Part shown: one piece after another, positions 2,074 to 24,434 of the stretch
Position numbering within the stretch: position 1 is the first letter of the stretch
How the letters are laid out: every line of letters starts with the position of its first letter
From: Deltaproteobacteria bacterium
Lineage (GTDB): Bacteria > Bdellovibrionota_C > UBA2361 > SZUA-149 > JADLFC01
Direction: 5' to 3'
Assembly: GCA_020845775.1 (NCBI GenBank)
Contig: JADLFC010000128.1
Span: 1-47,038 of the forward strand
Length of the DNA stretch: 47,038 nucleotides
The notes under the pieces: model-generated
What the model saw: the letters and a program-made list of their open reading frames with translations, nothing else
Databases searched by the model: none
Told to the model about the DNA's origin: nothing
Program-made: the position numbers and the translations under genes

Positions 2074-3018
2074 CTAGGCAATACCTCGGATCGATGCCAC
2101 CGTTTGATCTCGGGTGGTAATGAACTTTTGATAGCGCTTAACAGTGCCGTAGATCTCATCCCTAGAGTCCTCAAACTGCGCCTGTTTAATCCAGAGGCAT
2201 TTATCTTTAGCGCAAACCAACATCTTCCCTCTATCCTTTTTATATACTCTCCCCGCTTCGCCAAAATAGTTTTGCGAAAGCAATTCTGAAGAATACAAAT
2301 TGACTCGTCTGTTGCAGTAATAAGTAAAGGCGCCTGGATAAGGTGTAGTCAATGCTCTGATACGATTATGAATCTCCTCTGCCGTTAACATATCCCATAT
2401 TATCAAGCCGTCATCTGAAAACCTAAGAGGATAATAAGAGGCCTCCTCTTCGCACTGTTTCTTAAACACTATTTTATTGCTTCTTATTTGCTCCATCACT
2501 TCAAGCAGCATCTCGGGAAATGCTGCATTCGCTGTATCATGCAAATCCTTAATACTGTCATTGGGGCCAATTGGGAACGAGCGCTGCAAAACCACATCGC
2601 CTGTGTCTATGCCACCATCCACCTTAATAATTGATAGCCCAAACGAACTTTCGCCATTAATCAGTGCCCAATTAAGAGGAGAAGAACCTCTGTATTGAGG
2701 TAATCTACCACCATGAAGATTTAGACAGTATAGACTTGGGACAGATATAAGCTTTTCTCTAAATATCTTTCCATAACCTGCCAAGACAAACAAATCAGGA
2801 CTAAGTGCGGATAGCTCCTCAATAAAAGCTGGATTATTATTGTCCTCGGGGCATAAAACCGGTATGCCCACTTCCAAAGCATAACTCGTAACTGCCTCGC
2901 TCTTATCGTCGCAACTTCCGGGCATTCCGATTACTAGAATAACAGATGCAGAGTTTTCAAGTAATGCCTTTAGGCAGGTTAGCCCACGAGTGCCCTTTCC
3001 AAAAAAAACTATCTTCAT
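2074..3018 (-). CDS. Sugar N-formyltransferase (Fmt-like)
   Basis: A 314-residue formyltransferase of the methionyl-tRNA formyltransferase fold, using N10-formyltetrahydrofolate. Residues 1-175 form the catalytic domain. The signature NLHGGRLPQYRGSSPLNW (100-117) holds the catalytic Asn100 and His102, and DGGIDTGD (134-141) holds the catalytic Asp. A smaller C-terminal domain follows. The context is the 3' end of the nonulosonate gene cluster with no peptide deformylase nearby, so it more likely formylates an amino sugar than initiator tRNA. Formylated pseudaminic acids are known in other bacteria. GAGAG precedes the ATG. The upstream gene ends 12 nt before the start. Confidence 0.8.
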   Translation of the reverse strand: MKIVFFGKGTRGLTCLKALLENSASVILVIGMPGSCDDKSEAVTSYALEVGIPVLCPEDNNNPAFIEELSALSPDLFVLAGYGKIFREKLISVPSLYCLNLHGGRLPQYRGSSPLNWALINGESSFGLSIIKVDGGIDTGDVVLQRSFPIGPNDSIKDLHDTANAAFPEMLLEVMEQIRSNKIVFKKQCEEEASYYPLRFSDDGLIIWDMLTAEEIHNRIRALTTPYPGAFTYYCNRRVNLYSSELLSQNYFGEAGRVYKKDRGKMLVCAKDKCLWIKQAQFEDSRDEIYGTVKRYQKFITTRDQTVASIRGIA

Positions 3019-3030
3019 AGCCCAGCTCTC

Positions 3031-3372
3031 TCATAATTCATCTAGCCACTGAATAACCTCGTTTCTTTCAGTGTCCAGATACTGCTGAAATTCGTTAAGC
3101 CTTTTTGAATCGACTACCATAACATATACTCTGCCCTGCGAGTTTCTAACCAGCGCGGTTTTAAAGCCCTCGTCCTTGAGTCTACCGTTTACTGAAGGCG
3201 TTGCGTAATATCCCCATTCCTTAGCGCAAAAATCATAATGTCGCTCATCAGGGTTAATGAATGTAATTTGCTCATTCTCTGCAAGAAAAATTTCACCACA
3301 ATCCGATATTTCTACCTGCTGCTTAAGACCGACTCTATATTTTCGAGGAGGCTGCTTCTCTATAACTTTCAT
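3031..3372 (-). CDS. Conserved-looking small protein in the nonulosonate cluster
   Basis: A 113-residue soluble protein from the ATG at 3372, chosen because it forms an ATGA overlap with the stop of the upstream amidotransferase gene; a TTG five codon positions earlier is possible but less likely. It reads as an N-terminal beta-rich half (KYRVGLKQQVEISDCGEIFL...ENEQITF) followed by FCAKEWGYYATPSVNGRLKDEG and a C-terminal helix with QWLDEL. I do not recognise the family. The tight coupling suggests it works with the N-acetyl sugar amidotransferase or the formyltransferase that follows, perhaps as an accessory or carrier-like factor. Confidence 0.65.
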   Translation of the reverse strand: MKVIEKQPPRKYRVGLKQQVEISDCGEIFLAENEQITFINPDERHYDFCAKEWGYYATPSVNGRLKDEGFKTALVRNSQGRVYVMVVDSKRLNEFQQYLDTERNEVIQWLDEL

Positions 3373-4487
3373 CGCCAGTGCCAATCCTCAATCAAGAAAT
3401 CCCTAAGTATCCAGGTTCCCCTTTCTCTATGCCATATATCGGTGTTTCGAAATTTTTCGGCAATCTCCCAGAAGTGCTGCTCGCTAATCCTTAAAAACTC
3501 ACACAGGCGCTCTATGTCGTCGTATGGCACCTGCTCTCCAGTTTTCCGCACAATCTCAACTGCCTGCTCTCTGCTAATGTTTCCATTTCGGATTTCGAGC
3601 GACAGGTTGTCAAACAGTCGGGTAAAACCATATTTTAGCCATTTAAAATAATGATGCACTGATATTAAGTCACAATCAATATCAGCAAAGTTGTAATAAC
3701 CGACCTTTGGCCCCTCGTCTCGTACCTTAAAACCATGCTTCAATGCTATCTCAAGACTTTCTTGGGGACTCCAGTTAAAATAGTATCCAATAAATATTGA
3801 CTGTAACCCAACACGGCTAAACTCTTCTTCTGTGGGAAGCTTGTAAATCTCAAGGTCCTTTGAGTCTAGATCTGTATCAATCCAGTCTTCGATCATAGTA
3901 CCTTGGAGAATTCCATGTGAGATAAGAAATGTCCTATCTAGTGAATTGCTACACCGCTGCTCCTGCGAACCACCATACTCCATGTACGGGCTCTCGCCCC
4001 AAACAACTAGTGGCACATTTAAGGCGACAGCAAATCGAAGAGGAATAATGTAGAGGCCGAAGTGCATTGGCACACCTACGCTACCTTTGTTTAATAACGC
4101 CTTGTAAGTGAATTCTCTTTCGACATCGGGGTTTACCGAATAATCTATGTGATCCACCCCAAGGCTAATTAAGTTTTCGAGATTTTTCTGTCCGATCTCC
4201 GTTCGGCTAGGCGTTTTCCACGTAATTGCTAAGACATGAAGATCATGCTCAAGGCATTTAACGACCTGATATGTGCTATCCTTTCCACCACTAACCGGTA
4301 CTATGCAGTCAAAGGGTCTATTTAGTAGCTTGACTTGCTGTAGTAGATTCGAAAACTGCCTCGCTCTTGTGTCCCAATCAAAACTCAATTTCTCATCATG
4401 GCCCTTACAAGCATTGCATACGCCATCAGTTTCAATAATTAACCCTGGTCTAGTGTTTGGCAATATACATCTTTTGCAATATTTCAT
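3369..4487 (-). CDS. N-acetyl sugar amidotransferase (WbpG/PseA family)
   Basis: A 372-residue protein of the TIGR03573 type. Residues 1-30 hold a four-Cys zinc-binding knuckle (Cys4, Cys7, Cys24, Cys27: YCKRC...GVCNAC), followed by an ATP-pyrophosphatase PP-loop SGGKDS (66-71). Members convert the acetamido group of a nonulosonate or uronic-acid sugar into an acetamidino group, using ammonia from a glutaminase partner. The usual HisH/HisF-type partners are not in this cluster; the adjacent AsnB-type gene (4503-6320) may supply ammonia instead. It overlaps the next gene by 4 nt. Family assignment is secure; the exact substrate is inference. Confidence 0.88.
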   Translation of the reverse strand: MKYCKRCILPNTRPGLIIETDGVCNACKGHDEKLSFDWDTRARQFSNLLQQVKLLNRPFDCIVPVSGGKDSTYQVVKCLEHDLHVLAITWKTPSRTEIGQKNLENLISLGVDHIDYSVNPDVEREFTYKALLNKGSVGVPMHFGLYIIPLRFAVALNVPLVVWGESPYMEYGGSQEQRCSNSLDRTFLISHGILQGTMIEDWIDTDLDSKDLEIYKLPTEEEFSRVGLQSIFIGYYFNWSPQESLEIALKHGFKVRDEGPKVGYYNFADIDCDLISVHHYFKWLKYGFTRLFDNLSLEIRNGNISREQAVEIVRKTGEQVPYDDIERLCEFLRISEQHFWEIAEKFRNTDIWHRERGTWILRDFLIEDWHWR

Positions 4488-4502: not shown

Positions 4503-6320
4503 TCAATAGAGCTCAAAAAATAATTTGCTATTAATAAAGTTAAACAAGAATTTACTATAGCTATTGGGCAGAGCGTTGTCTTTAAGAAGATTTTCGATAC
4601 GAGATTTCGAGACTAGGCGGTAAATAGGGCTATCGTCCAGCAGCCAATGCCTAAAGTCCGCCGATCCCAGATCAAAGACGGATTCAACGGATGCGTTAAA
4701 GCCTTTCTTTTGCCTGTCGAGCCTAACCTTATCATTAAGCAGTCCATTCATGGCCTCACGCAATAGGTATTTCCCATAGCCATGCTCAATCAAATGCACT
4801 GTTGGAATAGAGTAAGCAAAGTTGAATAGCTCCGTATCGAGAAATGGACTTCGGTTTTCCAAGGAATAATACATAGAATTCAAATCATCCTCATGTAGTA
4901 TCACTGGCACGACCTCCTCAAACAGCTCATTAAGCATGCTGTTTCGAAGCAGCGAATCACAGAAATTGTTTTCGGTAAATTCTTCAAAAAATGGCTCTAT
5001 AAGAAACTCTGAAAAAACGTCTCTATTGAGATAATGATGCTCTCTTACGGTAGGGTCTTCTACGTAAAGGAGTGGGTTCTTCAAATATGGATTTCTAACT
5101 ATAGGCGCTAAATATCGCTGCCAGTCAGCTAATGCGGTTTTAAATCTCCAGTCCCGCCTAATTTCGTATAAGTGGAGACTAAAATGATCATAGTACCCAG
5201 TAAAAAGCTCATCCGCTGCTGTGCCGGAAATGACAACCTTATAGCCGCATTTCGAAATTTCACGCGACAGAAAAGAGTGAATATAGTACGAAATCGTAGA
5301 AATTGGACTATCGTGATACTTAATTAGGGCCCGTAGATTATCTATTGATGTTTCTTTTTCTAGATGAATAAGAGTATTTCTACAGCCTACATCCCTAACG
5401 GTTGTTTCTATGTTGTCTAATTCGTTATACCTCTCATCTGGATCGACGATAGAGAAGGAATGAACATTTGTATTGAAGCATTTTTTCGCAATCGATACCA
5501 ATGCACCTGAGTCGACTCCGCCACTTAGACAAAATGCTATGGGAACGTCGGATCGCAATCGAAGCCTGAGGCTGTTGATTAGCTTATCCCTAATACCGCT
5601 TACTGCTTCCTCTCGTGACATCTCGCGCGGCCTAACGGATGGCGCCCAATACCTCTTGCTGGAAATCTCGGAACTAGACGTCACAACTATGTTCGTGGCA
5701 TAAGGAACTTCCTTAACTGTGCAAAAAAAAGTTTCATTGCCCTTATATAGTGACTTGTATCCATTAACTAAATAGCGAAAAACCTGATTGTTATTTATAG
5801 CAAAAGTTTTATTGGCTAAGGATCTGAGAAATTTTATTTCTGAGCCAAAAAAAAATCCATCCTTGTCTTCAACGTAATATAGTGGCTTTTCAGCAAACCT
5901 ATCTCGGGAGATAAATAGGCAGTGCCTATTGCGATCGTATACGGCGAATGCCCACATTCCCTCAAAATAGTTGACACATTCTTCTCCGAACTCTGCATAT
6001 GTCGCTAACAACACTTCCGTATCTGATTGAGTAATGAACTCGTGCCCAAGGGTGACTAACCGAGCTCGCAGTTCCAGGTAATTATAAATTTCGCCGTTAA
6101 AAATTACAGTAAGCGCATCTCGCGTAAATGGCTGATTTGAGCGGGCCTCTAAGTCTATTATACTCAGGCGTGAGTGCAGTAGATATACTCTAGTGTCATT
6201 GTCTTGAATGTCTAGATAGGCCTGATTGTCTGGGCCTCGGTTCTGCATTAGCGCTAGAGTTTGCTCTATGTCTTTCTTTGCAAGCTCGCGTTTACCGATA
6301 AATCCAGCTATGCCACACAT
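4503..6320 (-). CDS. AsnB-type glutamine amidotransferase
   Basis: A 605-residue asparagine-synthetase family protein. The start is set at 6320 because MCGIAGF must place the catalytic Cys at position 2 after Met removal; the longer frame to 6383 would bury it and overlap the neuB gene. The N-terminal class II glutaminase domain is followed by a synthetase domain with the PP-loop SGGVDSG. In sugar clusters such proteins amidate uronic or nonulosonic acids (WbpS-like) rather than making free asparagine. Its place between the nonulosonate synthase and the N-acetyl sugar amidotransferase supports a sugar role. It starts 16 nt after neuB, in the same apparent operon. Confidence 0.85.
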   Translation of the reverse strand: MCGIAGFIGKRELAKKDIEQTLALMQNRGPDNQAYLDIQDNDTRVYLLHSRLSIIDLEARSNQPFTRDALTVIFNGEIYNYLELRARLVTLGHEFITQSDTEVLLATYAEFGEECVNYFEGMWAFAVYDRNRHCLFISRDRFAEKPLYYVEDKDGFFFGSEIKFLRSLANKTFAINNNQVFRYLVNGYKSLYKGNETFFCTVKEVPYATNIVVTSSSEISSKRYWAPSVRPREMSREEAVSGIRDKLINSLRLRLRSDVPIAFCLSGGVDSGALVSIAKKCFNTNVHSFSIVDPDERYNELDNIETTVRDVGCRNTLIHLEKETSIDNLRALIKYHDSPISTISYYIHSFLSREISKCGYKVVISGTAADELFTGYYDHFSLHLYEIRRDWRFKTALADWQRYLAPIVRNPYLKNPLLYVEDPTVREHHYLNRDVFSEFLIEPFFEEFTENNFCDSLLRNSMLNELFEEVVPVILHEDDLNSMYYSLENRSPFLDTELFNFAYSIPTVHLIEHGYGKYLLREAMNGLLNDKVRLDRQKKGFNASVESVFDLGSADFRHWLLDDSPIYRLVSKSRIENLLKDNALPNSYSKFLFNFINSKLFFELY

Positions 6321-6336
6321 ATGCACCAGATTGCTT

Positions 6337-7347
6337 TTATGCAATATCCTCGAGAATGATTCTCGTTCCCTTCCCAATGTCACGATTTAGGCGCTTGCCT
6401 ATTAGTAAATGCTCCTGGCCCGGAGAAAGACCGTCTCGTGGGCGCACCCAGCTTAAGTCGGTCTCCGCAATGATGTCGTCCTTAGCGAGGTCTCTTGCGG
6501 CAACGATTGATCGCCTAACTTTATTCTTGTTCTCTAGCTCGCATTCTTGCAAAACCTTGCCCAGATGGCCAAGCATGATCTCGACATTCCTCACTTCTTC
6601 TACTAGTGCTTGTAAGTCTTTCGGGTCAGCCGACAGTTGATGATCGCGAAACGAGGAGTAATTCTTATCTATTGTGAAGTGCTTCTCAATAACTCGTGCT
6701 CCTAAGGCCACCGCACTAATAGCTGCTCGATTTCCCAGGCTGTGATCGGAGTATCCAACAACATCATGTATCTCTAGCAATTTGGGTATAGCGAGCAAAT
6801 TTACCTGCTCAGCGGGAGTGGGGTAACTGCATACGCAATGTAGTATCGCTAATCCAGGATTAGCTGTGCCACATTGCTGCCATTTGGAAAGTATGAAGTT
6901 CTTTGTGACTTTTATCTCGTTAATGTCACTAAGACCGGTAGAAATGATAATTGGCTTTCCTGTTTGACAAATCTTTTCTATTAACGGGTAAAAATCATTG
7001 TCCCCAGAAGCTATTTTAAAGGCTGGAACCAACTCATTTAAGAAATCAACGCTACTCCTGCAAAATGGCGTTGAGAGGAACATGACCCCTAACTGCTTGG
7101 CCTTGTCGCTAAGGCTGGCAAACTGCTCGGGCGAAAGCTGAAACTTCGATAGCTGTTTTATTCTAGCGGAATCCTTAACTGAAACTAGTTTATCAGGAAC
7201 GATTGTCTGAAACTTTACGGCATCTGCTCCGGCCTCGGCAGCCTTTGCGATGAGCTCTTCAGCTAGTGCATAGTCGCCTTCGTGACTATTGCCAATTTCA
7301 GCAATGATCAGTACTTTTTTGCAAAGGTCGAAATTAGCTATTTTCAC
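6337..7347 (-). CDS. neuB: Nonulosonic acid synthase (NeuB family)
   Basis: A 336-residue NeuB/LegI/PseI-family enzyme, which condenses phosphoenolpyruvate with a 6-carbon N-acyl amino sugar to give a 9-carbon nonulosonic acid. The TIM-barrel domain shows IIAEIGNSHEGD, AVKFQT, FLSTPF and AFKIASGD. The C-terminal antifreeze-like SAF domain (about 275-336) begins RRSIVAARDLAKDD and ends with GLSPGQEHLLIGKRLNRDI. The start is GTG with AGGA upstream. Whether the product is sialic, legionaminic or pseudaminic acid cannot be read from the sequence; the amidotransferase and formyltransferase neighbours favour a bacterial di-N-acyl type. Confidence 0.9.
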   Translation of the reverse strand: MKIANFDLCKKVLIIAEIGNSHEGDYALAEELIAKAAEAGADAVKFQTIVPDKLVSVKDSARIKQLSKFQLSPEQFASLSDKAKQLGVMFLSTPFCRSSVDFLNELVPAFKIASGDNDFYPLIEKICQTGKPIIISTGLSDINEIKVTKNFILSKWQQCGTANPGLAILHCVCSYPTPAEQVNLLAIPKLLEIHDVVGYSDHSLGNRAAISAVALGARVIEKHFTIDKNYSSFRDHQLSADPKDLQALVEEVRNVEIMLGHLGKVLQECELENKNKVRRSIVAARDLAKDDIIAETDLSWVRPRDGLSPGQEHLLIGKRLNRDIGKGTRIILEDIA

Positions 7348-7359
7348 TCGAGATCAATC

Positions 7360-8355
7360 CTAAAGGGATTTGTACCATTGTATATACTTTTTAAAGCCCG
7401 CCTCAATCGGAAACTGAGGGCTGTATCCCAGCAACCGTTTTGCCTTCTCCACTGATAGAGTTCCCCTATCTGGCATCAGGCGGTCTCGCTCTTTGTAGTG
7501 GATGTTGAGCTGTGGAAAATATTCCTGCACGACAAGTGCTAGTTCCGACATCGAACGAGATTCACCGTATGTTAGATTAAAGGTTTGGTTGTGAGAGTTG
7601 TCGTTCTCGATTACCAAACGAAGGCCCTGCGTCAGATCATCAATATAGGTAAAATCCAAGCGATCTGACCCATCCCCATTTACGGTAATATCGATATTAT
7701 TTAGGGCGTTTTCAACAAAAATTTGTCCAACTCGCCTGCTCACGCAGCGTTCGCCATACAGGGCCGATGGCCTTACGATAGTATAGTTAAGACTAAACAC
7801 CTGGTTATAGGCAATAACTATTTTCTCGCCAGCGTACTTGAGCGCACCGTAAATGCCAAGAGGACTACAAACAGTATCCTCCGTAACTTCGCCGGAAATG
7901 AAATTTCCGTACACCATGCTCGAGGAGAAAAAAATAAAATGGTTGGTTCTACTCCTAGCTAAATCCAGTGAATTTTCAAGGGTGCGCAAGCTGTGATCGA
8001 ATGTATTATATGGATCCTTATTGGAGCGATCGGCATGGGCTACTGCTGCTAATAGGATTATTACGTCTGGCTCGATTTTGTCTATTAAGTGACATAGTTG
8101 ATGATACTCTCTAGCATCTTGGACGATAACTGGAATGTCATATTCTTCCAGGAGGGTTAACCTAGCTCTAAGTAGATTTCTATAAAAGGACTTGTTGGCA
8201 ATTTCGTTTTCGGCTGACGAAAAAGAAAGAATATTGTTTACCCCTAAACTGTCTATTATATATGGCTGATGACCATGTTCTTTTAGATGTATTGCCAGGT
8301 TGTGACCAATGAAACCAGCTCCACCGATAAGAGCTATACTCTTTGCCTTAGCCAT
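7360..8355 (-). CDS. NAD-dependent sugar epimerase/dehydratase (SDR)
   Basis: A 331-residue extended short-chain dehydrogenase. The Rossmann motif GGAGFIG is at 11-17, a SSSMVYG serine region at 144-150, and the catalytic pair Tyr169 and Lys173 in YGALK. This fold converts nucleotide sugars (4-epimerase, 4,6-dehydratase or reductase). It is packed 12 nt from the downstream neuB gene and starts 4 nt after the stop of the DegT aminotransferase, so the products probably act in sequence on the precursor sugar. Exact reaction unknown. Confidence 0.85.
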   Translation of the reverse strand: MAKAKSIALIGGAGFIGHNLAIHLKEHGHQPYIIDSLGVNNILSFSSAENEIANKSFYRNLLRARLTLLEEYDIPVIVQDAREYHQLCHLIDKIEPDVIILLAAVAHADRSNKDPYNTFDHSLRTLENSLDLARSRTNHFIFFSSSMVYGNFISGEVTEDTVCSPLGIYGALKYAGEKIVIAYNQVFSLNYTIVRPSALYGERCVSRRVGQIFVENALNNIDITVNGDGSDRLDFTYIDDLTQGLRLVIENDNSHNQTFNLTYGESRSMSELALVVQEYFPQLNIHYKERDRLMPDRGTLSVEKAKRLLGYSPQFPIEAGFKKYIQWYKSL

Positions 8356-8359
8356 TTTT

Positions 8360-9505
8360 TCAAACCCTTATAATAATGTCCTTTACCGCATTAGCTAGGT
8401 TAACAATGTCCTCTTCGCTTAAATGAGGCCCAACTGGAAGTGCAACTGATGAATTGCTAATCCAACTTGCAACGGGAAAACTACTGTCGATTGAATAACC
8501 GTACTTCTCACTATAATATGTTAGATGAGGTACTGGGTGTGGGTAGTATACACTAGAGCCAAAACCTCTTGCCTTCAGTCCTTCAATTATGTCGACTCGT
8601 TTTGGAGTGAGCCTATCGTTAAGCATGGCAGAGAGGCAATAATGACTACTTACAAAGTCCCCATGCGAGGATTGAAGCAATGTTAGTTCATCGATATCCT
8701 TCAGGCAGGATTCTAACAAGTTGTAGTTGCGTTCGCGGACTGCAAGTATGTCTGGCAATCGTTTTAGTTGTTCTATGCCTAAGGCGGCCGCAACCTCGTT
8801 CATGCGATAGTTGTAACCAAGCATGGTCACATCGTAGACTCCAGGAACTGCTCGTTCGCCCACTACCCTATCTACTCCAAAAGCTCTTGTATATCGAACG
8901 GTAGCGGCTAGCTTATCATCCTTAGTAATTAACATCCCGCCTTCTGCCGTGGTCATGTGCTTAACAGGATAAAATGAAAAGCAGCCAACATCACCTAGAA
9001 GGCCAGCATGTACTCCTTTAACATATGTTCCGGTAGCGAGGGCGCAGTCTTCTACTACAAGCAAGTGATACTTTGCTGCAATACTGCAAACGCGCGTCAT
9101 ATCCACAGGCATTCCCAAGAAATGCACGACTGATATGGCTTTAGTCCTATTGGTTATTGCGGCTTCAATCTGGTCTATATCTATATTGCCAGTCTTTCGC
9201 TCTGCATCTACAAATACCGGTTTTGCGCCACAGAATTCAACGGCATGTGCTGTAGCAGTATGTGTCTGTGCTGGGACAATTACTTCGTCTCCAGGCTTTA
9301 AGCTTGAATAGAAGTAAGTCAAATGCAAGGCTGCGGTGCAAGATGCTACGGAAAGCGAATAGGGCGCCTTAGTGAATAGACTGAAGCTCTCCTCAAATTG
9401 CTTGGTTTTTGGACCATGAACGAGAATGCCGCTTCTTAAAACCTCGGTCACTGCGTCTATCTCTTGCTGGCCAATCACTGGCTTGCCAAAGGGTATATTA
9501 TCCAT
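8360..9505 (-). CDS. DegT/DnrJ/EryC1/StrS sugar aminotransferase
   Basis: A 381-residue PLP-dependent aminotransferase of the sugar family. The N-terminal segment PFGKPVIGQQEIDAV and LRSGILVHGP are typical, VEDCALATG (151-159) corresponds to the PLP-ring Asp region, and FSFYPVKHMTTAEGG holds the Schiff-base Lys182. These enzymes transfer an amino group to a keto-sugar nucleotide. Here it likely makes the amino sugar that the formyltransferase or acyltransferase later modifies. It sits between a Gfo/Idh oxidoreductase and an SDR, a usual ketosugar-to-aminosugar arrangement. Confidence 0.9.
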   Translation of the reverse strand: MDNIPFGKPVIGQQEIDAVTEVLRSGILVHGPKTKQFEESFSLFTKAPYSLSVASCTAALHLTYFYSSLKPGDEVIVPAQTHTATAHAVEFCGAKPVFVDAERKTGNIDIDQIEAAITNRTKAISVVHFLGMPVDMTRVCSIAAKYHLLVVEDCALATGTYVKGVHAGLLGDVGCFSFYPVKHMTTAEGGMLITKDDKLAATVRYTRAFGVDRVVGERAVPGVYDVTMLGYNYRMNEVAAALGIEQLKRLPDILAVRERNYNLLESCLKDIDELTLLQSSHGDFVSSHYCLSAMLNDRLTPKRVDIIEGLKARGFGSSVYYPHPVPHLTYYSEKYGYSIDSSFPVASWISNSSVALPVGPHLSEEDIVNLANAVKDIIIRV

Positions 9506-9519
9506 TTAGTCACCTTATG

Positions 9520-10521
9520 CTATATTTGTCGAACTACAACGCTATTACCTTCCTTAACTGCTTGCTCAATCGCAAAACATACTGCCATAGCTTGGAACGC
9601 ATCTTCTGATGTAACTAAGGGCTTTTTCCCCTCATGCAATATAGATTCAATGAAGCTAAAAACTAGTTCGCCTTTTTTTACTCCCGGATAGGCAGTGTCG
9701 AGTTGCCTAGGAGATTCGTCCGGATTCCTGGACGTGTAAAAGAGTGCGTGTTTCAAACCATTTACGTAAGTTGCCTTAGTCCCATAAACGTTTAATGTAT
9801 GAAAATGTGGATATACACAACCGTAATTTGAGCCGACTTTCCCAATTGCTCCAGAGCTGAATTTTAGTAAGGCTATAACAGTATCATTATAGCGATATTG
9901 CGTGCCCGCAGAGTGAATTTTATTTCCAAGCGCAGAAACTTCTATCACCTTGTCTCCCGTGAGCCAAAGCATTAGGTCCACCAGATGCAGTCCGCCTCCA
10001 TAGACAACGGAATAAAACGGAATTTGCCCCCTCCATTCATTGGTAATCTTATGCAGTCGCCCATAGTTGTAGTCTCCCTCTATGTAGGAGATTTGTCCTA
10101 ATTCCGTATCGCCAATCATCTTCTTTAGCTCAATGAATCTTGGACAACAGCGCAATATTAGGTTAGAAGAAAATCGAAGGTGTGGATTGCTTGTTAGCGA
10201 TTTTTTAATTGCTCGCGCTTCTATCTCTGAAAGACAAAAGGGCTTCTCCACGAACACATGTTTGCCATTTTCAATGGCAGTGACTGTGTGCTCCATGTGA
10301 TAGTTGTCAAATGATGCAATTGAAATGACATGAATGTTAGGATCGGTTAAAATGATATTCGCCTGATCGACGCATAAAATATCAGGGTATTTTTCATGTG
10401 CTAGCTGTTGCTTTTCGGCCGAGAAATCACAAATAGCCACCACCTCGCATGCAGGATGAGCACGATAGGCCTCCAAATGAGCCTCGCCAACTCCTAAACC
10501 TATCACTCCCACTCGTAGCAT
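9520..10521 (-). CDS. Gfo/Idh/MocA-family sugar oxidoreductase
   Basis: A 333-residue NAD(P)-dependent oxidoreductase. The N-terminal Rossmann domain begins VGVIGLGVGEAHL, and the cofactor and substrate motif EKP is at 92-94 (HVFVEKPF). The C-terminal alpha/beta domain includes GGGLHLVDLMLWL (about 175-187), the usual GG..D.G.H.xD region in variant form. In surface-sugar clusters such enzymes oxidise C3 of UDP-sugars before a DegT aminotransferase acts, which matches the gene directly downstream (14-nt gap). The substrate is not identifiable. Confidence 0.85.
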   Translation of the reverse strand: MLRVGVIGLGVGEAHLEAYRAHPACEVVAICDFSAEKQQLAHEKYPDILCVDQANIILTDPNIHVISIASFDNYHMEHTVTAIENGKHVFVEKPFCLSEIEARAIKKSLTSNPHLRFSSNLILRCCPRFIELKKMIGDTELGQISYIEGDYNYGRLHKITNEWRGQIPFYSVVYGGGLHLVDLMLWLTGDKVIEVSALGNKIHSAGTQYRYNDTVIALLKFSSGAIGKVGSNYGCVYPHFHTLNVYGTKATYVNGLKHALFYTSRNPDESPRQLDTAYPGVKKGELVFSFIESILHEGKKPLVTSEDAFQAMAVCFAIEQAVKEGNSVVVRQI

Positions 10522-10559: not shown

Positions 10560-11885
10560 CTAGCTATTAAACTGCTCCTGAGTTACAAAATTTACTGTCT
10601 TATGATTAGCAACATCTACTATGAGCCGACCAATATTCTTTTGTCCCTGATAAGCCGAAAAAGGTCGCTGGCCTTTAGCAAACTTATATCCATCATGCTG
10701 CCTTTTTAGCCAGTACTCTTCATTATCCAATAAGCCATTAATCTCTGCATTCAATTGCTCATAATCTTGGACGAAGCTACAGTAATTACTCATGATGGTG
10801 CAGCCGATAAGATGCGCTCCACGTGGATACATGTGCATAGCGACACATGGACGTCCCGCTGCGCAAGCATCGAGCAATACGCTGGAGTCGGACATGCTTG
10901 ATACTATTATGTCAGTTGCTGTCATAACGGAGTCTTTCCGATCTGAAATCACTACCAAGTTATTGTAATTAAGTTCTTCTCCAACTGATAATATCGCATT
11001 CACATCCTCTATCGCTGTTCGTCCGGGATTTTGCCTAACAATTATTATTGTTGGTTTACCCATTTCTTCACGTGCCTTGGCTACGCTAATAATATTCTCG
11101 AGAGTTTCAACAAACTGGAAGGCTAAACAGGAACTAGTCAAGTATAATCCCTCCATAAAAGGACAAGTATATAAAATTATGCTGGCCTTTGGATCGAGTT
11201 GCAGAAGCTCTTTCGCCGCTGCTCTTTTCAGTTTATCTTTAGAAACATCTAGAACGTCGTCGGACTCTATTGATGTAAATGGCGTTCCAGTCACATATTT
11301 TTTAGTCCCTGATACTGGAAACTGATTGAGTATTTGCAAGCCAAAGTTGTCGGCTAGCGCTACCACATCGCAAACTTCAGGCAATAATATTTCGTTAGTA
11401 ATCCATGAGCCGTGTTGTAGATGTATGCTTGGAATGCCGTAAACTTTAGATAGAGCCGCTACTGCCTGATATTTGTCTAAGTACGAAGGAGAAAGCACGG
11501 AGCAGCGTATGTCGAACTGCTCCAATAGCTTTTTGAATCCGTTGATATAAGTATAATATAGTCTAAGCCCAACCTGAATGCCGCGTGCAATGACATTTTC
11601 GGAATCAGTATCCAAATATTGACTATATGGTAAGTCACCTAGATTAGAAAACAGAAAGGAAGATAACTCGTAGCAGCGTTTTTCACTCTCCAAGTTGCCA
11701 GCCGCTGTGCATGCCTGCATATCAACGACTTCATCGAGAAAAATAAGCCTGCCATTACATTGTTTCTTGAGATCTGTATCGTTGTTATTACATATTACGT
11801 AGCAATCCGACTGACCAATGATTTCTGTTATCACGCTCTTAATGCGATCAAATAACCCAAAGAATACGATAGCTCGAGTTTTCAT
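10560..11885 (-). CDS. GT-B-fold-like surface carbohydrate protein
   Basis: A 441-residue soluble protein without clear family identity. It looks like a two-Rossmann (GT-B) fold: an N-terminal half ending in VYGIPSIHLQHGSW (about 150-163) and a C-terminal half with ADNFGLQILNQFPV, VTGTPF, and a late MTATDIIVSSMSDSSVLLDACAAGRPCVAMHM block. The last block resembles the donor-binding part of UDP-GlcNAc 2-epimerases, nucleotide-sugar hydrolases and capsule glycosyltransferases. No hydrolysing 2-epimerase is otherwise visible in the nonulosonate cluster, so this protein may fill that step or be a glycosyltransferase. Sequence alone does not decide. Confidence 0.5.
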   Translation of the reverse strand: MKTRAIVFFGLFDRIKSVITEIIGQSDCYVICNNNDTDLKKQCNGRLIFLDEVVDMQACTAAGNLESEKRCYELSSFLFSNLGDLPYSQYLDTDSENVIARGIQVGLRLYYTYINGFKKLLEQFDIRCSVLSPSYLDKYQAVAALSKVYGIPSIHLQHGSWITNEILLPEVCDVVALADNFGLQILNQFPVSGTKKYVTGTPFTSIESDDVLDVSKDKLKRAAAKELLQLDPKASIILYTCPFMEGLYLTSSCLAFQFVETLENIISVAKAREEMGKPTIIIVRQNPGRTAIEDVNAILSVGEELNYNNLVVISDRKDSVMTATDIIVSSMSDSSVLLDACAAGRPCVAMHMYPRGAHLIGCTIMSNYCSFVQDYEQLNAEINGLLDNEEYWLKRQHDGYKFAKGQRPFSAYQGQKNIGRLIVDVANHKTVNFVTQEQFNS

Positions 11886-11921: not shown

Positions 11922-12716
11922 TTAGTTACGCATTGCCGATTTCTTTGCTATGATCTTAGAATAAACCTCTCCCAGTGCAAGGCGTATTGAAAAATAAAGC
12001 ATTGAGTAAAGGTTATTTGATGTTTCGGTAATTGACATTTTCGGACAGGGTTTTGGTCTCCACCAGTTATGAACCCATGACCATAGGAGTAGATCTAAGG
12101 CATAAAGCTCTTCGAAAGTTCCGATTTTGCTAGAATTTCGTAGATGACTCGCCACTAGTCTAGGTCTTGTAACGCATGGGTGGAAGCACTTGTCGCACGG
12201 TATAATATCAAATCTAAATAAGCTACCTTTGATAGAATAACGAAATTCATTTAGGCAACTCTTGCATCGAATAGATAAAATGACATGTATGATGTTATCC
12301 TTATTGATGGAATATGCTCTGAGAATATTTGCCTCGAGCTGACTGCTTCTGGACATTTGTAGAACTAAATCTTTCTCATTGCTCTCAACTAATTCATTCG
12401 CCCAGCTACTCGACTCAGGATTAACAACTACAAGAGCTCTTAATACTTCCTTAGCGTGTGCTGTCTGTTTGTTGGATATTAACGAAAGCGCAAAAATAGT
12501 TAACAGCGGCGCGCTATAGTTAGTTGCGTGCTTGCAAAGTTCAGCAGCTATGTGCTGCGAAAGTTCATAGTTGCCTTCTTTATATATTATTCCACAGGCG
12601 TCTATATAACTTTCTATGGTCTTAACGCTTTTAGCATGGGATAGGGCGAGCTGAGATGCTAGGTTGTAATCCAGAGCGGAAAGTGCTTTAGCAATAGAGT
12701 CTTGTAATAGTGTCAT
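11922..12716 (-). CDS. Helical-repeat protein with a zinc-ribbon, function unknown
   Basis: A 264-residue protein. Residues 1-115 look like TPR-type alpha-helical repeats (ALSALDYNLASQLALSHA, YKEGNYELSQHIAAEL, AKEVLRALVVVNPES). Around 150-180 two CxxC pairs (RCKSCLNEF and PCDKCFHPC) suggest a zinc ribbon. The C-terminal 80 residues are hydrophobic and Trp-rich (LLLWSWVHNWWRPKP). I do not recognise the family. It is divergently arranged with the 878-residue acyl-activating fusion, only 46 bp away, so the two may share a promoter region. Confidence 0.55.
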   Translation of the reverse strand: MTLLQDSIAKALSALDYNLASQLALSHAKSVKTIESYIDACGIIYKEGNYELSQHIAAELCKHATNYSAPLLTIFALSLISNKQTAHAKEVLRALVVVNPESSSWANELVESNEKDLVLQMSRSSQLEANILRAYSINKDNIIHVILSIRCKSCLNEFRYSIKGSLFRFDIIPCDKCFHPCVTRPRLVASHLRNSSKIGTFEELYALDLLLWSWVHNWWRPKPCPKMSITETSNNLYSMLYFSIRLALGEVYSKIIAKKSAMRN

Positions 12717-12762: not shown

Positions 12763-15399
12763 ATGGATAGCTGGAAAAATTTAACCGTGGAATCTTTTAG
12801 ATCGCTGTTTTCTGACAAATTAGATGTTAAACACGAGCTGACGTGGCTTTATCTCCTACATGAAGGAAGAGCAACATCCTACAGGTACAAGGACGTCATT
12901 AGTCGCACTTATGATTATTGTCGATTTTTTCAGGAAAAAGGGATAGGGGAAGGCGATTCCATTCTGATTGTGTTAAAAGAATCGATTGATTTGTTCGCGA
13001 GTTTCTTTGCCGGCATATTGCTGGGCGCCAGGCCCGCATATTCCTCTTATCCATCTCCAAAACAAACAATCGACAGGTTTATCGACTCCACGGAAGCCTT
13101 GGTTCGCTACAATCGCATAAAGCTGATCGTTTGTTATTCCGAAATATACTCTCTTTTTAGCAATAAGAATGTGATCGCAGATTCGTCTTTTCTCGGGTAC
13201 TTTACCCCTGAAGAAGTATTTTTGTTAGATCAATTAGACATAGGAGATATTTCAGTTGCAAGGTGCGAGGCGTTTGTTCAGTACTCTTCGGGCACAACAG
13301 GTGCCAAAAAGGGCATTCAGATATCCATAGCTGCGCTTTTTAATCAATTAGAAGCGTATGGAAAGTTCCTTTTGCTCGATTCAGATAGCAAGATAGTGTC
13401 GTGGCTGCCTCATTACCACGATATGGGTCTCGTTGCGTGCACGTTGATGCCTTTTATTAAGCGGATTCCATTATATCTTATGTCTCCATTTGATTGGGTT
13501 CGCAACCCTAAAATACTGTTTGAAGCAATTACAAAGTACCAATGTACGCATGTGTGGCTGCCAAATTTTGCTTTAGGCCATCTAACAAAAAGCATTAGAT
13601 CATCTGATATACACCTTTATAACCTGGGCTCCATTAAACAAATAATTTGCTGCTCAGAACCTCTACTGAAGGAGACCTGCGATCACTTTGCCGAAAAATT
13701 CTCATCGATCGGTATAAACAATTCTAATATCTTTAACTGTTATGCAATGGCAGAAAATACCTTTGCGATGTCATCGACTAGAAAGGGCCCACCGCGTTTT
13801 CTTGCAGTTAATCGCAATTCTTTCCAAAAAGATAATCGCATCGTGCCACGGCTCGATAGCTCATTATCTTTCTCGAGCGTTGGAGAGCCACTCGATAATA
13901 TTGAGATAAGTATAAGAGACGACCAAAATAACATACTTGAGGAGAATACAGCAGGAGAGATCTTTATTAAGAGCAATTGTATGCTCGATGAGTATCTAAA
14001 CAACGAAGGAGAGACTAAGCGTTCGATCGTTGATGGATGGTTTCACACAGGAGATATTGGTTTTTTTCACGATAGTGAATTATATATATGTGGCAGAAAA
14101 AAAGATCTAATAATAGTTGGCGGTGAAAACATCTACCCACAAGATATAGAACTCATTCTAAATAGATGGGAAGGACTGATTCCCGGGAGAAACTTGGTTT
14201 TTGGAGTCTGCGATGAAAGAGTTGGAACTGAAAAAATCATCGTCCTGGCGGAAGCGAAAGATCCTTCGGCTAAGATCAATACGCTCGATATTAGGAGTGA
14301 AATATTTAACAGTCTAAACGTTTCTGTAGCTGATATAATAATACTTCCTCACATGACGCTAAGAAAAGGGACAGCCGGAAAGATCTCCAGACATCTAAAC
14401 AAGCAAGCATATCTAGAGGGCGCATATAGTCAAGTAAATCAACAAGGCAAAGAATCAAAGAATCTACGAGATGTCGTACAACGCATAATTCCCTCAGACT
14501 ACAGTTCTAGGATTCTGGAGGATACGAGCCTCTTTAAATCTGGACTGCTAGATTCGTTTGCATTTATAGAACTTATAGGCGCACTTGAAGAAAATTATGA
14601 GCTAGAAATTCCAGAACAATATTGGACTGTGGAAAACTTTGAAACACTGCGTCATATAGAATCGCTTCTAGCAAGACTTCCCATTTCATCAACGGAAACA
14701 GACCGTACGGATAGATGTAAACACGAACGCAACGAGAGCTATAATCGATTAAGATCCGTTTCAAGTGGCATTAGTTCTACTGCTCCAATATGGGAACGTA
14801 TTATTAATATATGGCCAATAAGATCTTCCTTTTGTTATAGTGGGCTCTTTAAACTCGCTGGAATTAGGATAGGCAAGAATGTCAGATTTTTGGGCAAAGT
14901 ATATGTAAAGCTGAGAGGGATGCCTAGCAATATAGTCATTGGCGATAATGTTACTATTGGTCACAATGTTGACCTGCGGAATCGCGAAAATGGGAAGATA
15001 ATCCTGGGTGATAGAGTGATATTGGACAGCAGTGTGCGTTTAGTGGCGGCCAGAGAGGGGAGAATTGAAATAGGCTATGGCTCTGAAATTGGTTATAATA
15101 CTATTATTAATTCTGGTGGCGTAACATTGATAGGGGAGTTTGCACTACTTGCTGGCAACGTAAATGTCAATTCTTCCAGTCATAAGACAGTTAGGAGTGC
15201 CTTTGTTCGAGAGCAGGCACATCAGCACGGGAAAATCACAATTGGAGACGATGTGTGGATTGGCTCTGGAGCTTCTATATTGCTAAACACAAATATTGAA
15301 GAAGGTGCTATAGTTTCTTCAAATTCGCTAGTAAGGGGCCATATTCCTGCTTTTGCAGTTTGTGCAGGAGTGCCCGCCAAGGTCATCTGTTACAGATGA
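12763..15399 (+). CDS. Acyl-AMP ligase::acyl carrier::hexapeptide acyltransferase fusion
   Basis: An 878-residue, three-module protein. Residues 1-550 form an adenylate-forming ligase: P-loop YSSGTTGAKKG (174-184), LPHYHDMG (215-222, typical of fatty acyl-AMP ligases), CYAMAENTF (326-334), GWFHTGDIG (425-433) and the catalytic Lys540 in GTAGKISR. Residues about 565-640 are an acyl carrier domain with attachment Ser598 in GLLDSFAFIEL. Residues about 695-878 are a left-handed beta-helix acyltransferase with hexapeptide repeats, His807 in SSHKTVR, and the usual CatB/NodL-type end GVPAKVICYR. The likely cycle is activation of an acid as acyl-AMP, loading onto Ser598, and transfer to a sugar hydroxyl or amine. 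It is the only plus-strand gene within the island. Confidence 0.88.
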   Translation: MDSWKNLTVESFRSLFSDKLDVKHELTWLYLLHEGRATSYRYKDVISRTYDYCRFFQEKGIGEGDSILIVLKESIDLFASFFAGILLGARPAYSSYPSPKQTIDRFIDSTEALVRYNRIKLIVCYSEIYSLFSNKNVIADSSFLGYFTPEEVFLLDQLDIGDISVARCEAFVQYSSGTTGAKKGIQISIAALFNQLEAYGKFLLLDSDSKIVSWLPHYHDMGLVACTLMPFIKRIPLYLMSPFDWVRNPKILFEAITKYQCTHVWLPNFALGHLTKSIRSSDIHLYNLGSIKQIICCSEPLLKETCDHFAEKFSSIGINNSNIFNCYAMAENTFAMSSTRKGPPRFLAVNRNSFQKDNRIVPRLDSSLSFSSVGEPLDNIEISIRDDQNNILEENTAGEIFIKSNCMLDEYLNNEGETKRSIVDGWFHTGDIGFFHDSELYICGRKKDLIIVGGENIYPQDIELILNRWEGLIPGRNLVFGVCDERVGTEKIIVLAEAKDPSAKINTLDIRSEIFNSLNVSVADIIILPHMTLRKGTAGKISRHLNKQAYLEGAYSQVNQQGKESKNLRDVVQRIIPSDYSSRILEDTSLFKSGLLDSFAFIELIGALEENYELEIPEQYWTVENFETLRHIESLLARLPISSTETDRTDRCKHERNESYNRLRSVSSGISSTAPIWERIINIWPIRSSFCYSGLFKLAGIRIGKNVRFLGKVYVKLRGMPSNIVIGDNVTIGHNVDLRNRENGKIILGDRVILDSSVRLVAAREGRIEIGYGSEIGYNTIINSGGVTLIGEFALLAGNVNVNSSSHKTVRSAFVREQAHQHGKITIGDDVWIGSGASILLNTNIEEGAIVSSNSLVRGHIPAFAVCAGVPAKVICYR

Positions 15400-17193: not shown

Positions 17194-17898
17194 CTAAAGC
17201 AAAGTGTCGTAGATTTCGCATTTCTGCTTAAGTGCATAGTAGTAATGCGGTTTATTCAATATATGTATAAACTTAGTCATTCGTTCCATGTCTTCCATAG
17301 TGTCTATGGCAAATTTATAGCGGTCGGTATTGTTCAATATTCTTGGAAAACCACTTATCGTATATAACTCCTTGTTCTCATAAAAATATCTCGTAACATG
17401 CTCAAAGTGCTCCGGCTTTGCGAAGCTGTTATACGCTTTGATAAAAGTTTCAGATTTAATAACTTCTACATTCATGCCAGATGGTAACGACCCGTTAATA
17501 ACAGACGATACAATATCCACTTCGCTATTACAGAAAAGTTCTTCTGCTTGTGCAACAAGTCTGTAGTCCAATAGCGGGCTATCTCCATTAATACGAACAA
17601 AACAACTCGCCCTAGGGCGTTCTATTAGTATATCTCTGAATCTAGAGGCGACATTTATAGGGTCGCCTCGAAATACATAAACACCACGACTGTTCCCGAA
17701 TTCTTTTATCTTATCATCTTCGATATTTGTGCTTGTGGCGATAACTAAAGAATCTAGACTTGCGTATTGAATCAATGAATCCAGTAAATATTGTAGCATA
17801 GGTTTGCCTTTTATCAGATATAATGATTTCCCTGGCAACCTAGTGGAACCCATTCTAGCCTGTATTATGTGAACAAGACTATGTTTCAGGAGAGGCAT
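17194..17898 (-). CDS. Acylneuraminate-type cytidylyltransferase (SpsF/NeuA-like)
   Basis: A 234-residue nucleotidyltransferase with the N-terminal CTP-binding signature HIIQARMGSTRLPGKSL (residues 10-26) and VRINGDSPLLD, typical of the SpsF branch of the CMP-KDO/CMP-NeuAc synthetase family. It would activate the nonulosonic acid made by the NeuB-family enzyme as a CMP-sugar for transfer. Together they supply the two defining steps of nonulosonate use. It lies downstream of a GT4 gene on the same strand (46-nt gap). Confidence 0.85.
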   Translation of the reverse strand: MPLLKHSLVHIIQARMGSTRLPGKSLYLIKGKPMLQYLLDSLIQYASLDSLVIATSTNIEDDKIKEFGNSRGVYVFRGDPINVASRFRDILIERPRASCFVRINGDSPLLDYRLVAQAEELFCNSEVDIVSSVINGSLPSGMNVEVIKSETFIKAYNSFAKPEHFEHVTRYFYENKELYTISGFPRILNNTDRYKFAIDTMEDMERMTKFIHILNKPHYYYALKQKCEIYDTLL

Positions 17899-21959: not shown

Positions 21960-23117
21960 CTATAAGAGCTCGTCGTTCCATAGCTGTTTCATGAAAATGT
22001 TCCAAGGGATTATGTCTATCTTGTCGTCGGTGCGCCTAAGTTTGGCATCGAGAGACACTACGATATAGCGTCTAAACAAATGTTCCTCCTTAAAAGCACG
22101 GAGTCCCTTGAGGTGTGTATTGTTAACTTTTTCGGTGGATTTTACTTCAATCGCGACCTCTTCATCGCCTAGAACAAAATCGACCTCAAAGCCGCTACTT
22201 GTTCGCCAATAGGAGATTGGATAATGCCGTTGTCGGTAGCTCGAATGGGCAATGAGTTGTTGGTAGATGAAATGCTCAAATGCAGAGCCGTATGACGTCG
22301 AGCCGCGCTCAATTTTTTGCCTTTTTGCTAGGTGGTTGACTAAACCAAGATCGAAGAAATAAAATTTTGGCGATGCTATGAGTCGACGTTTTGCTCTTTT
22401 TTGATACACTGGTAGGTAGCTTCCTATGAGGGTATCTACCAAAATTTGAAAATATTGTTTTACACTTGAGGAGCTTACGCCTACATCGCTTGCGATATTA
22501 GTGTAATTTACGATCTCACCATTCATCACTCCCGCAACTTCAAGAAAGCGCGAAAAAGCAGGCAAATTTCGCACTAGTGCCTCAGAGTGAATTTCTTCTT
22601 TTAGATAATCGTCTACGTAGGCACGCAAAAGCTGAGGGTAGTGTTCGCTACTATAATGTCGTGGCAATAATCCGCGATTAAGTGCTTGGTCTAAAGAAAA
22701 GTTGTCGATTTCGGGAAAAACTAACGGATACAGTTCGTAACGCACTGCGCGCCCACCTAAAAGATTGGCATGTCCGCGTTTTACTTTTCTGGCGCTTGAG
22801 CCGCATAGCAAAAACCTTAAACCCTTGTTTTCTATGAGCCAGTGAACGGTATCTAGTAACTCCGGGATTTTTTGAATTTCGTCAATTATTATGGGTTCGA
22901 CTTGAGTATCGGCGCTAAGTCCTAGGGCCAGGCACTCTTCTCGAAGAATGTCGGGGTCTTGTGTTAAGCGCCGAAATTCCGAAGACAAAAGTAAGTCATA
23001 TCGCTTTGCCTTGGGAAAAAGTACGCGAAGCAAAGTGCTCTTTCCGGTTTGTCGCGGCCCCCAAAGAAAACAAGTCTCCTTTTGCGACAAATTTAAATCT
23101 AAGATTCGTTTATGCAT
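21960..23117 (-). CDS. AAA-type ATPase with DUF4143 domain
   Basis: A 385-residue ATPase. Walker A is GPRQTGKST (about 20-28), Walker B is PIIIDEIQK with a following sensor-like LLCGSSARKVKRG. The C-terminal part (about 200-385) has the DUF4143 layout, including a winged-helix-like region (NYTNIASDVGVSSSSVKQYF) and an endonuclease-like strand GFEVDFVLGDEEVAIEVKS. The family is widespread, patchily distributed and of unclear function; DNA-related or toxin-antitoxin-like roles have been suggested. It is divergent from a paralogue, with an inverted repeat 20 bp upstream of its start. Confidence 0.88.
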   Translation of the reverse strand: MHKRILDLNLSQKETCFLWGPRQTGKSTLLRVLFPKAKRYDLLLSSEFRRLTQDPDILREECLALGLSADTQVEPIIIDEIQKIPELLDTVHWLIENKGLRFLLCGSSARKVKRGHANLLGGRAVRYELYPLVFPEIDNFSLDQALNRGLLPRHYSSEHYPQLLRAYVDDYLKEEIHSEALVRNLPAFSRFLEVAGVMNGEIVNYTNIASDVGVSSSSVKQYFQILVDTLIGSYLPVYQKRAKRRLIASPKFYFFDLGLVNHLAKRQKIERGSTSYGSAFEHFIYQQLIAHSSYRQRHYPISYWRTSSGFEVDFVLGDEEVAIEVKSTEKVNNTHLKGLRAFKEEHLFRRYIVVSLDAKLRRTDDKIDIIPWNIFMKQLWNDELL

Positions 23118-23136
23118 GTATTATTGAAGTAGTAAA

Positions 23137-23170
23137 CTATAATTACATATCTAAGATATTGTAATTATAG
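23137..23170. promoter_or_regulatory. Inverted repeat upstream of the DUF4143 gene (candidate operator)
   Basis: Perfect 11-bp arms CTATAATTACA (23137-23147) and TGTAATTATAG (23160-23170) with a 12-bp centre that is itself nearly palindromic. It lies 20 bp before the minus-strand ATPase start, inside the divergent intergenic region. TATAAT within the arm could also serve as a -10 element. A dimeric regulator site is a reasonable reading but unproven. Confidence 0.5.
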
Positions 23171-23256
23171 CAAATCGATATAAAAAGCGAAAGCCAAACC
23201 GTTGCTTTGCTGGAACCCGATCGTTGCGGCAGTTGCAACTTTTGCATTGACCACAC

Positions 23257-23277
23257 TAAAATTTACGGTAAAATTTA
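23257..23277 (+). promoter_or_regulatory. Tandem TAAAATTTA repeats before the second ATPase
   Basis: TAAAATTTA occurs twice (23257-23265 and 23269-23277) with a CGG spacer, ending 5 nt before the ATG at 23283. A bound protein here would cover the ribosome binding region or transcript start, so it is a candidate autoregulatory site. Confidence 0.4.
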
Positions 23278-23282
23278 GGGTC

Positions 23283-24434
23283 ATGTATGCACGTTTGTTA
23301 AAACCTCAAGATAAGGCCTTTTTTTTGTTTGGGCCGCGGGGGGTGGGAAAGAGCACTTGGCTTAAGCAGCAGTTTGGCGACGCTTATTTTGTCGATCTGC
23401 TAACGGCAAATACCTCTCTAAAATATGCACGCGATCCCAGTTTGCTTGCCGCAGAAGTTCGGGCCCAGCCGAAAAATCGCTGGATTGTCATCGACGAGAT
23501 CCAAAAAGTGCCGGCGCTTTTGGATGAAGTTCATGGCTTAATGGAAAACGACGGCCACAAAAAATTTGCACTGTCTGGCTCGTCTGCGCGAAAGCTTAAG
23601 CGTGGAGCGGCCAATATGTTAGCGGGAAGAGCAAATACTAAGGCGCTTTATCCACTGACATTGGCGGAAGTCGATTTTCAAGTAAGGCCCGAAGAAGTTT
23701 TAGAGTATGGTTTGCTTCCTCTAAGTGTTGGTGCATCGCGAAACTATGATAAGGAAGATTTTCTTAAGAGCTATGTAACTATTTATCTTAGCGAGGAGAT
23801 TAAAGCGGAAGGTCTAGTGAGAGATATTGGCCACTTTTCGCGTTTCTTAAGTCTTGCGTCTTTAGTTGCCGGGACGCAAGTTAACATTTCCGCCCTGGCG
23901 CGAGATGCGGGAATTGGGAGGGATACGGTTGAGGGATATTTTAGCATTTTTGAGGATACGCTACTGGGAAGTTTTTTACCGGCTTATCGGCCGCGCGCCA
24001 AAGTAAAGGAGGTCTCTAAGCCAAAGTTTTATTGGTTTGATAGTGGAGTGCTTCATGCTGCGGCGGGTGGTTTTGACGCGCAAATGCCCAAGGATTGGCG
24101 TGGCGTACTGATGGAGCACTGGATATATCACGAGTTAAGAGCGTACCTCGATTATAACCGCGTTCGCGGTCAGCTTGGATTTTGGCGCACTCCATCGGGA
24201 ACCGAAGTTGATTTTCTCTGGTGGTATGGCAATCGCGCTATTGCCATCGAGGTTAAGAGCAGCGAAAGTTTTCGCAGAGAGTTTTTAAAAGGCATTTATT
24301 CGCTTGGCGCTAGTATGGACGTAGAAGCGAGCTATTTGGTTTATCTTGGCAAAGACAGGCTGTTAGTGGAAAACGTAAATGTCGTGCCCGTAACTGACTT
24401 TTTGCGCGATCTTAGCGAGGGTAGGGTGATATAG
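23283..24434 (+). CDS. AAA-type ATPase with DUF4143 domain, paralogue
   Basis: A 383-residue paralogue of the divergent gene. The ATG at 23283 (MYARLLKPQDKAFFLFGPRG) is preferred over an in-frame TTG 27 codons upstream, because family members begin just before the Walker A. Walker A is GPRGVGKST, Walker B is WIVIDEIQK, then LSGSSARKLKRGAANMLAGRA. The C-terminal DUF4143 region includes SALARDAGIGRDTVEGYF and GTEVDFLWWYGNRAIAIEVKSS. It converges with the prepilin gene, leaving only 2 bp between the stops. Confidence 0.87.
   Translation: MYARLLKPQDKAFFLFGPRGVGKSTWLKQQFGDAYFVDLLTANTSLKYARDPSLLAAEVRAQPKNRWIVIDEIQKVPALLDEVHGLMENDGHKKFALSGSSARKLKRGAANMLAGRANTKALYPLTLAEVDFQVRPEEVLEYGLLPLSVGASRNYDKEDFLKSYVTIYLSEEIKAEGLVRDIGHFSRFLSLASLVAGTQVNISALARDAGIGRDTVEGYFSIFEDTLLGSFLPAYRPRAKVKEVSKPKFYWFDSGVLHAAAGGFDAQMPKDWRGVLMEHWIYHELRAYLDYNRVRGQLGFWRTPSGTEVDFLWWYGNRAIAIEVKSSESFRREFLKGIYSLGASMDVEASYLVYLGKDRLLVENVNVVPVTDFLRDLSEGRVI

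Follow-up and report, generated by a model that had tools for sequence, protein, structure and literature searches.

A predicted FAAL–ACP–LbH acyltransferase fusion in a nonulosonate-type gene cluster, conserved in the Minwuia order

The window analysed here is the whole stretch of 47,038 nucleotides of contig JADLFC010000128.1, from a Deltaproteobacteria bacterium (GCA_020845775.1), and its features are listed in Table 1. It carries a gene with an ATG start and no internal stop, whose product joins a FAAL-type acyl-AMP ligase, an acyl carrier domain (ACP) and a hexapeptide-repeat (LbH) acyltransferase domain in a single chain. The start codon is plausible, as the N-terminus matches that of the Minwuia orthologue (W4, T8) in the alignment. 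An AlphaFold run on the fusion, which used 32 sequences, gave a confident FAAL fold and an ACP of moderate confidence, followed by a disordered linker and then by a beta-helix of repeats. The earlier note, made from the DNA letters, had proposed these three domains, in this order and at these gene coordinates, and Pfam, alignment and AlphaFold agree with it; the two residues that it singled out are indeed a serine at 598 (GLLDSF) and a histidine at 807 (SSSHKT).

Table 1. Features of the fusion gene and of the cluster that surrounds it (positions in the window)
Feature	Position	Strand	Evidence
Whole gene, FAAL–ACP–LbH fusion, 878 aa	12763..15399	+	ORF translation, Pfam, AlphaFold
FAAL-type acyl-AMP ligase domain, residues 1-556	12763..14430	+	Pfam, NCBIfam, PDB, Foldseek
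Region of FAAL-specific insertion, about residues 338-372	13774..13878	+	Alignment
Lys540, expected catalytic Lys of adenylation C-subdomain	14380..14382	+	Alignment
Acyl carrier domain, about residues 566-643	14458..14691	+	PP-binding, predicted helix bundle
Ser598, expected phosphopantetheine site	14554..14556	+	Alignment, AlphaFold
Flexible linker, about residues 644-684	14692..14814	+	pLDDT
LbH hexapeptide-repeat acyltransferase domain, residues 685-878	14815..15396	+	Hexapep, PDB relatives
His807, putative catalytic base	15181..15183	+	Alignment
Formyltransferase (ArnA/Fmt-like)	2074..3018	-	Profile match
WbuX-family N-acetyl sugar amidotransferase	3369..4487	-	TIGR03573 above cut-off; 50.5% to Minwuia
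AsnB-like amidotransferase	4503..6332	-	NCBIfam; 53% to Minwuia
NeuB-family nonulosonate synthase	6337..7347	-	Pfam; 44% to Minwuia
SDR NAD-dependent epimerase/dehydratase	7360..8355	-	Pfam; 57% to Minwuia
DegT/PseC-like aminotransferase	8360..9505	-	Pfam, NCBIfam; 60% to Minwuia
Gfo/Idh/MocA oxidoreductase	9520..10521	-	Pfam; 48% to Minwuia
CTP_transf_3 cytidylyltransferase	17194..17898	-	Pfam; 36% to Minwuia

The surrounding cluster lies mostly on the minus strand and also contains two methyltransferases and glycosyltransferases. The fusion gene is on the opposite strand and is not obviously within the cluster's operon; promoter and terminator scans around it gave sites no more numerous than in shuffled sequence. 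NeuB, an aminotransferase, a dehydratase/epimerase and a CMP transferase occur together, in agreement with the nonulosonate setting claimed for the gene from the start, and this gene content identifies the set as a nonulosonate-type cluster. The WbuX/PseA-like protein presumably adds an amidino group to the sugar and the formyltransferase an N-formyl group, as is known for these families. Among the cluster genes scanned none could be assigned as a hydrolysing 2-epimerase or as PseG, and the neighbouring genes scanned include no MBOAT, hence not the MBOAT plus SGNH partners of a Dlt-type system. The GC content of the cluster genes is low (38-45%) compared with that of the his genes (50-51%), which fits horizontal spread of the cluster. 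Two cluster proteins encoded on the minus strand, at 10560-11885 (441 aa) and 11922-12716 (264 aa), have no Pfam, NCBIfam or convincing PDB match and are absent from the Minwuia clusters.

In the ligase domain, Pfam AMP-binding covers residues 36-412 (E 6e-41), the best NCBIfam and PDB sequence matches are largely FAALs, and FAALs also head the Foldseek matches (7r7e, TMt 0.88). The solved FAALs 3kxw and 7r7g align through the stretch of the FAAL-specific insertion, which is a gap in L010, a non-FAAL AMP-binding protein; two Minwuia-order fusions have this stretch shortened by about 15 residues. Because the best PDB and Foldseek matches are FAALs and the insertion stretch is present, sequence and modelling together indicate a FAAL-like enzyme and not a CoA ligase. 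Lys540 is invariant in the 32 aligned proteins and in every fusion, so that the domain combines the AMP-binding fold and motifs, the expected catalytic lysine and the insertion of the family. FAALs are expected to transfer the acyl group to an ACP and, by analogy, the ligase of the fusion is expected to make an acyl-AMP and then to load the ACP, not CoA.

The ACP is missed when the whole protein is scanned with Pfam, and the ACP piece scanned alone matches PP-binding at 24.8 bits, against a gathering cut-off of 20.8. AlphaFold folds it as a helix bundle in which Ser598 begins helix 598-611; the bundle and the DSx serine are those of a PP-binding ACP. A PPTase is present in the window's genome. 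The pLDDT is below 50 across residues 643-721, which are predicted to be disordered.

Hexapeptide repeats in the C-terminal domain are recognized by Pfam (Hexapep, residues 825-859), and the closest solved LbH relatives among PDB sequence matches are maltose and galactoside O-acetyltransferases. His807 pairs with LacA His115 (a residue number counted off the alignment) and is invariant in the six complete fusions, as expected by sequence for a catalytic histidine. The predicted beta-helix is regular; a shallow alignment leaves its second half weakly supported, and the pLDDT near His807 is low in both models, of the whole protein and of LbH alone, each computed as a single chain. The LbH-only model was set aside, since its confidence was too low for use and it brought no gain over the whole-protein model. 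A search of viral contigs for LbH homologues found none.

The same fusion was found elsewhere. A genome scan was seeded with P0001 and two FAALs, and the best 80 loci among the matches listed were kept; one of them, in a Minwuia MAG of the Alphaproteobacteria (L011), encodes the full fusion, at 33% identity to that of the window, at the end of a cluster ordered cytidylyltransferase, Gfo, DegT, SDR, WecD-like GNAT, NeuB, AsnB, WbuX, fusion, with cluster proteins 36-60% identical to those of the window. The fusion is present in six of nine Minwuia-order genomes (the Minwuia MAG and five of the eight others), and in each of the six it terminates a collinear cluster with this gene set, the GNAT being present in most of them (36-62% identity to the window's proteins); the ORF finder used was a simple one, and a few of these cluster genes were uncalled in single genomes. 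The three parts thus occur in identical order in six further genomes, one copy of which (L112) has a run of N in the LbH; it was excluded from residue counts, leaving, with the window's own, six complete proteins, in all of which the acid-activating, carrier-binding and transferase residues (Lys540, Ser598 and His807) are invariant. This recurrence excludes chance or an assembly artefact as the origin of the fusion, and it overturns the earlier view that the three-part combination stands alone. In addition, DegT is 60-62% identical to the window's in the six Minwuia-order genomes with the fusion and at most 38% in the three genomes that lack it. The same cluster at every fusion and this co-occurrence with DegT tie the fusion to the cluster.

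The distribution outside this order was also surveyed. G020, a genome from the same class as the window's, carries, on contig 32 (L142), relatives of DegT (56%), SDR (64%), AsnB (51%) and WbuX (43%); the fusion is absent from the 20 kb read there, and the genome as a whole gave no FAAL match at E 1e-40. Because G020 has much of the cluster without the fusion, comparison of the gene sets indicates that the fusion is an accessory and does not belong to the core pathway. Among 46 genomes of the phylum to which the window belongs, no fusion was found besides the window's, none of 1731 matching plasmid records covers 80% of the query, and the sampled Gammaproteobacteria (369) and Planctomycetota (294) yielded no FAAL–ACP–LbH protein, only some SGNH-type fusions. 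A planctomycete locus (L058) considered as a third full match was rejected, as it has separate ACP and FAAL frames, a short LbH-like piece and stops in the FAAL. The occurrence of the cluster core without the fusion in G020, together with the inversion of the gene and the fact that FAALs often supply PKS/NRPS and lipid pathways, might mean that the product is an acylated lipid, a peptide or another small molecule and that the gene lies in the cluster by chance. We consider this improbable, since the fusion accompanies the same cluster in two lineages that are far apart, a close DegT relative is found only alongside it in the Minwuia order, and the scan of the cluster genes turned up no PKS/NRPS gene.

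What FAALs related to that of the window work with was read from their gene neighbourhoods. In nearly all of the best 80 loci listed an ACP gene adjoins the FAAL, and 28 of these loci have, as a neighbour, a member of a single protein family represented by an MBOAT; further conserved neighbour families at these MBOAT loci resemble SGNH proteins, as judged visually or from weak Pfam matches. These neighbourhoods point to a Dlt-like arrangement of FAAL, ACP, MBOAT and SGNH-like genes. Such a cassette appears, from gene content, to be common among the Anaerolineae loci fetched, and L025 (5085-6548) and related Anaerolineae loci combine FAAL, ACP and MBOAT with additional conserved genes. The partner belongs to the WcbI family at L004 and L117, and in Paraburkholderia (L009) an ACP–FAAL–PlsC protein is made as a single chain. 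FAAL–ACP proteins with an SGNH-like C-terminus are encoded at L066 (8941-11883), L115 (4180-7029), L116 (6509-9409) and L134 (6265-9297), in Alphaproteobacteria, Alteromonas and a planctomycete; their SGNH-type reading comes from motifs, with no Pfam match, and they constitute a parallel fused architecture. Magnetococcales proteins (L060 6916-9423, L061 2-2602, L063 8836-11343) have a different order: the FAAL is followed by a possibly SGNH-like middle domain, and the ACP stands at the C-terminus. The simplest reading is a common FAAL–ACP front with a swapped terminal transferase. These proteins bear on another reading of the fusion, in which FAAL–ACP loads an acid while the LbH works separately as a sugar O- or N-acetyltransferase with acetyl-CoA as donor and is merely co-localised by the fusion, as might be thought from its closest solved relatives, which are acetyl-CoA enzymes (LacA, Maa, CatB and NeuD-OAT types). 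It is unlikely in our opinion: the LbH remains fused in all complete orthologues, most Minwuia-order clusters already hold a WecD-like GNAT as a separate gene, and the SGNH-type putative transferase occupies the same C-terminal place in related FAAL–ACP proteins, which fits an ACP-fed transferase.

In a tree of FAAL domains, the Minwuia-order LbH-fusion FAALs group with two alphaproteobacterial SGNH-type proteins (99% SH-aLRT), and the window's FAAL is on a long branch without firm placement. A single clade of all LbH-fusion FAAL domains is not rejected (p-AU 0.648), and the tree constrained in this way scores 10 log-likelihood units above the quick free tree; a double independent origin of the fusion is therefore unneeded and was discarded. 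The long branch might mean that the fusion has degenerated or lost its function in a MAG that evolves fast, which is very hard to reconcile with an open frame of 878 codons that retains all expected catalytic residues.

Taken with the domain composition, the conserved residues, the single type of nonulosonate cluster in two lineages and the PPTase, these observations lead us to propose that the fusion is probably a self-loading acyltransferase, independent of CoA thioesters, that decorates a nonulosonate or its precursor. The FAAL domain would adenylate a free carboxylic acid with ATP and then load the acyl onto the phosphopantetheine arm that the host PPTase would have installed on Ser598. 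The flexible linker would allow the loaded ACP to dock on an LbH trimer, where His807 would activate an OH or NH2 of a nonulosonate, of its CMP form or of a precursor for acyl transfer; acyl-CoA would be dispensable throughout. Hence the route from acid to acylated sugar without an acyl-CoA donor that the earlier note put forward stays plausible, even though the uniqueness that went with it does not.

Each part of this route has a precedent. FadD32/FadD28, the Legionella FAAL (3kxw) and the olefin synthase FAAL (7r7e) share fold, motifs and insertion region with the ligase of the window, which is joined to an ACP and an LbH in a nonulosonate cluster and not in a PKS or lipid setting. E. coli Aas has ligase and acyltransferase in one chain, as do the fusion and L009, the latter also with an ACP; however, Aas and L009 use a PlsC-type transferase for phospholipids and have another domain order. 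LpxA and LpxD are LbH enzymes that use acyl-ACP, but the ACP is the free FAS one, and neither is among the PDB sequence matches listed for the window's LbH. In the Dlt pathway (DltA-DltC-DltB-DltD), an acid is adenylated, loaded on a carrier and transferred onto a surface polymer (PMC11035591). These steps resemble those proposed here, and the nearest FAALs among the matches listed accompany ACP, MBOAT and SGNH-like genes, whereas the fusion is one chain in which a soluble LbH replaces the MBOAT. For the Flavobacterium psychrophilum O-antigen (WfpG/WfpD), a PglD-type LbH acyltransferase has been proposed to act from a dedicated ACP on a sugar nucleotide (PMC6519341); there the genes are separate, the acyl group is thought to be FAS-like in origin and no FAAL takes part. 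Aeromonas group II flagellar islands have an ACP and an AMP-dependent synthetase within the pse cluster (PMC7874193), again as separate genes and with no LbH fusion described. Since there are precedents part by part, the finding is a new variant and not a new principle. Our search of the open-access literature, with most subscription journals outside it, found no published description of the fusion, which is a real and conserved variant of known acylation machinery, apparently undescribed. Unusual acyl groups are chemically known on sialic-acid-like sugars, and their biosynthesis is often unexplained. A route in one protein, with a conserved cluster in more than one lineage, allows a direct test of acyl choice and attachment and, if it works, would be a compact tool to place chosen acids on sugars without a CoA ester. 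More tentatively, at somewhat less than an even chance, the fusion may represent an enzyme type of its own, which would carry an acid onto a nonulosonate sugar by intramolecular acyl transfer; FAAL–ACP would be kept and the terminal transferase exchanged, so that a dedicated ligase, and not the acyl-CoA pool, chooses the acyl groups on flagella or cell surfaces.

Each of the six fusion genomes tested, that of the window included, encodes flagellins, and in the Minwuia genome a flagellin gene is about 9 kb past the fusion. Caulobacter FlmG (596 aa), which combines TPR and GT-B domains, attaches pseudaminic acid to flagellin (PMC7591256). In the Minwuia order a protein of 590-607 aa with N-terminal TPRs is encoded beside the cytidylyltransferase; it is like FlmG in size and in its N-terminal TPRs, and the FlmG-sized proteins at L110 (16247-18055), L113 (16491-18263) and L143 (5567-7390) are candidate flagellin glycosyltransferases. 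No recognisable counterpart is present in the window; by analogy, flagellin is a plausible final sugar carrier in the Minwuia order only. Elsewhere in the window, two related ATPases encoded by divergent and adjacent genes (21960-24434) match PDC-S01, a candidate family of PADLOC; a DUF6933 gene (226-828) matches PDC-S63, and the gene at 1265-1801 is AbiEii-like.
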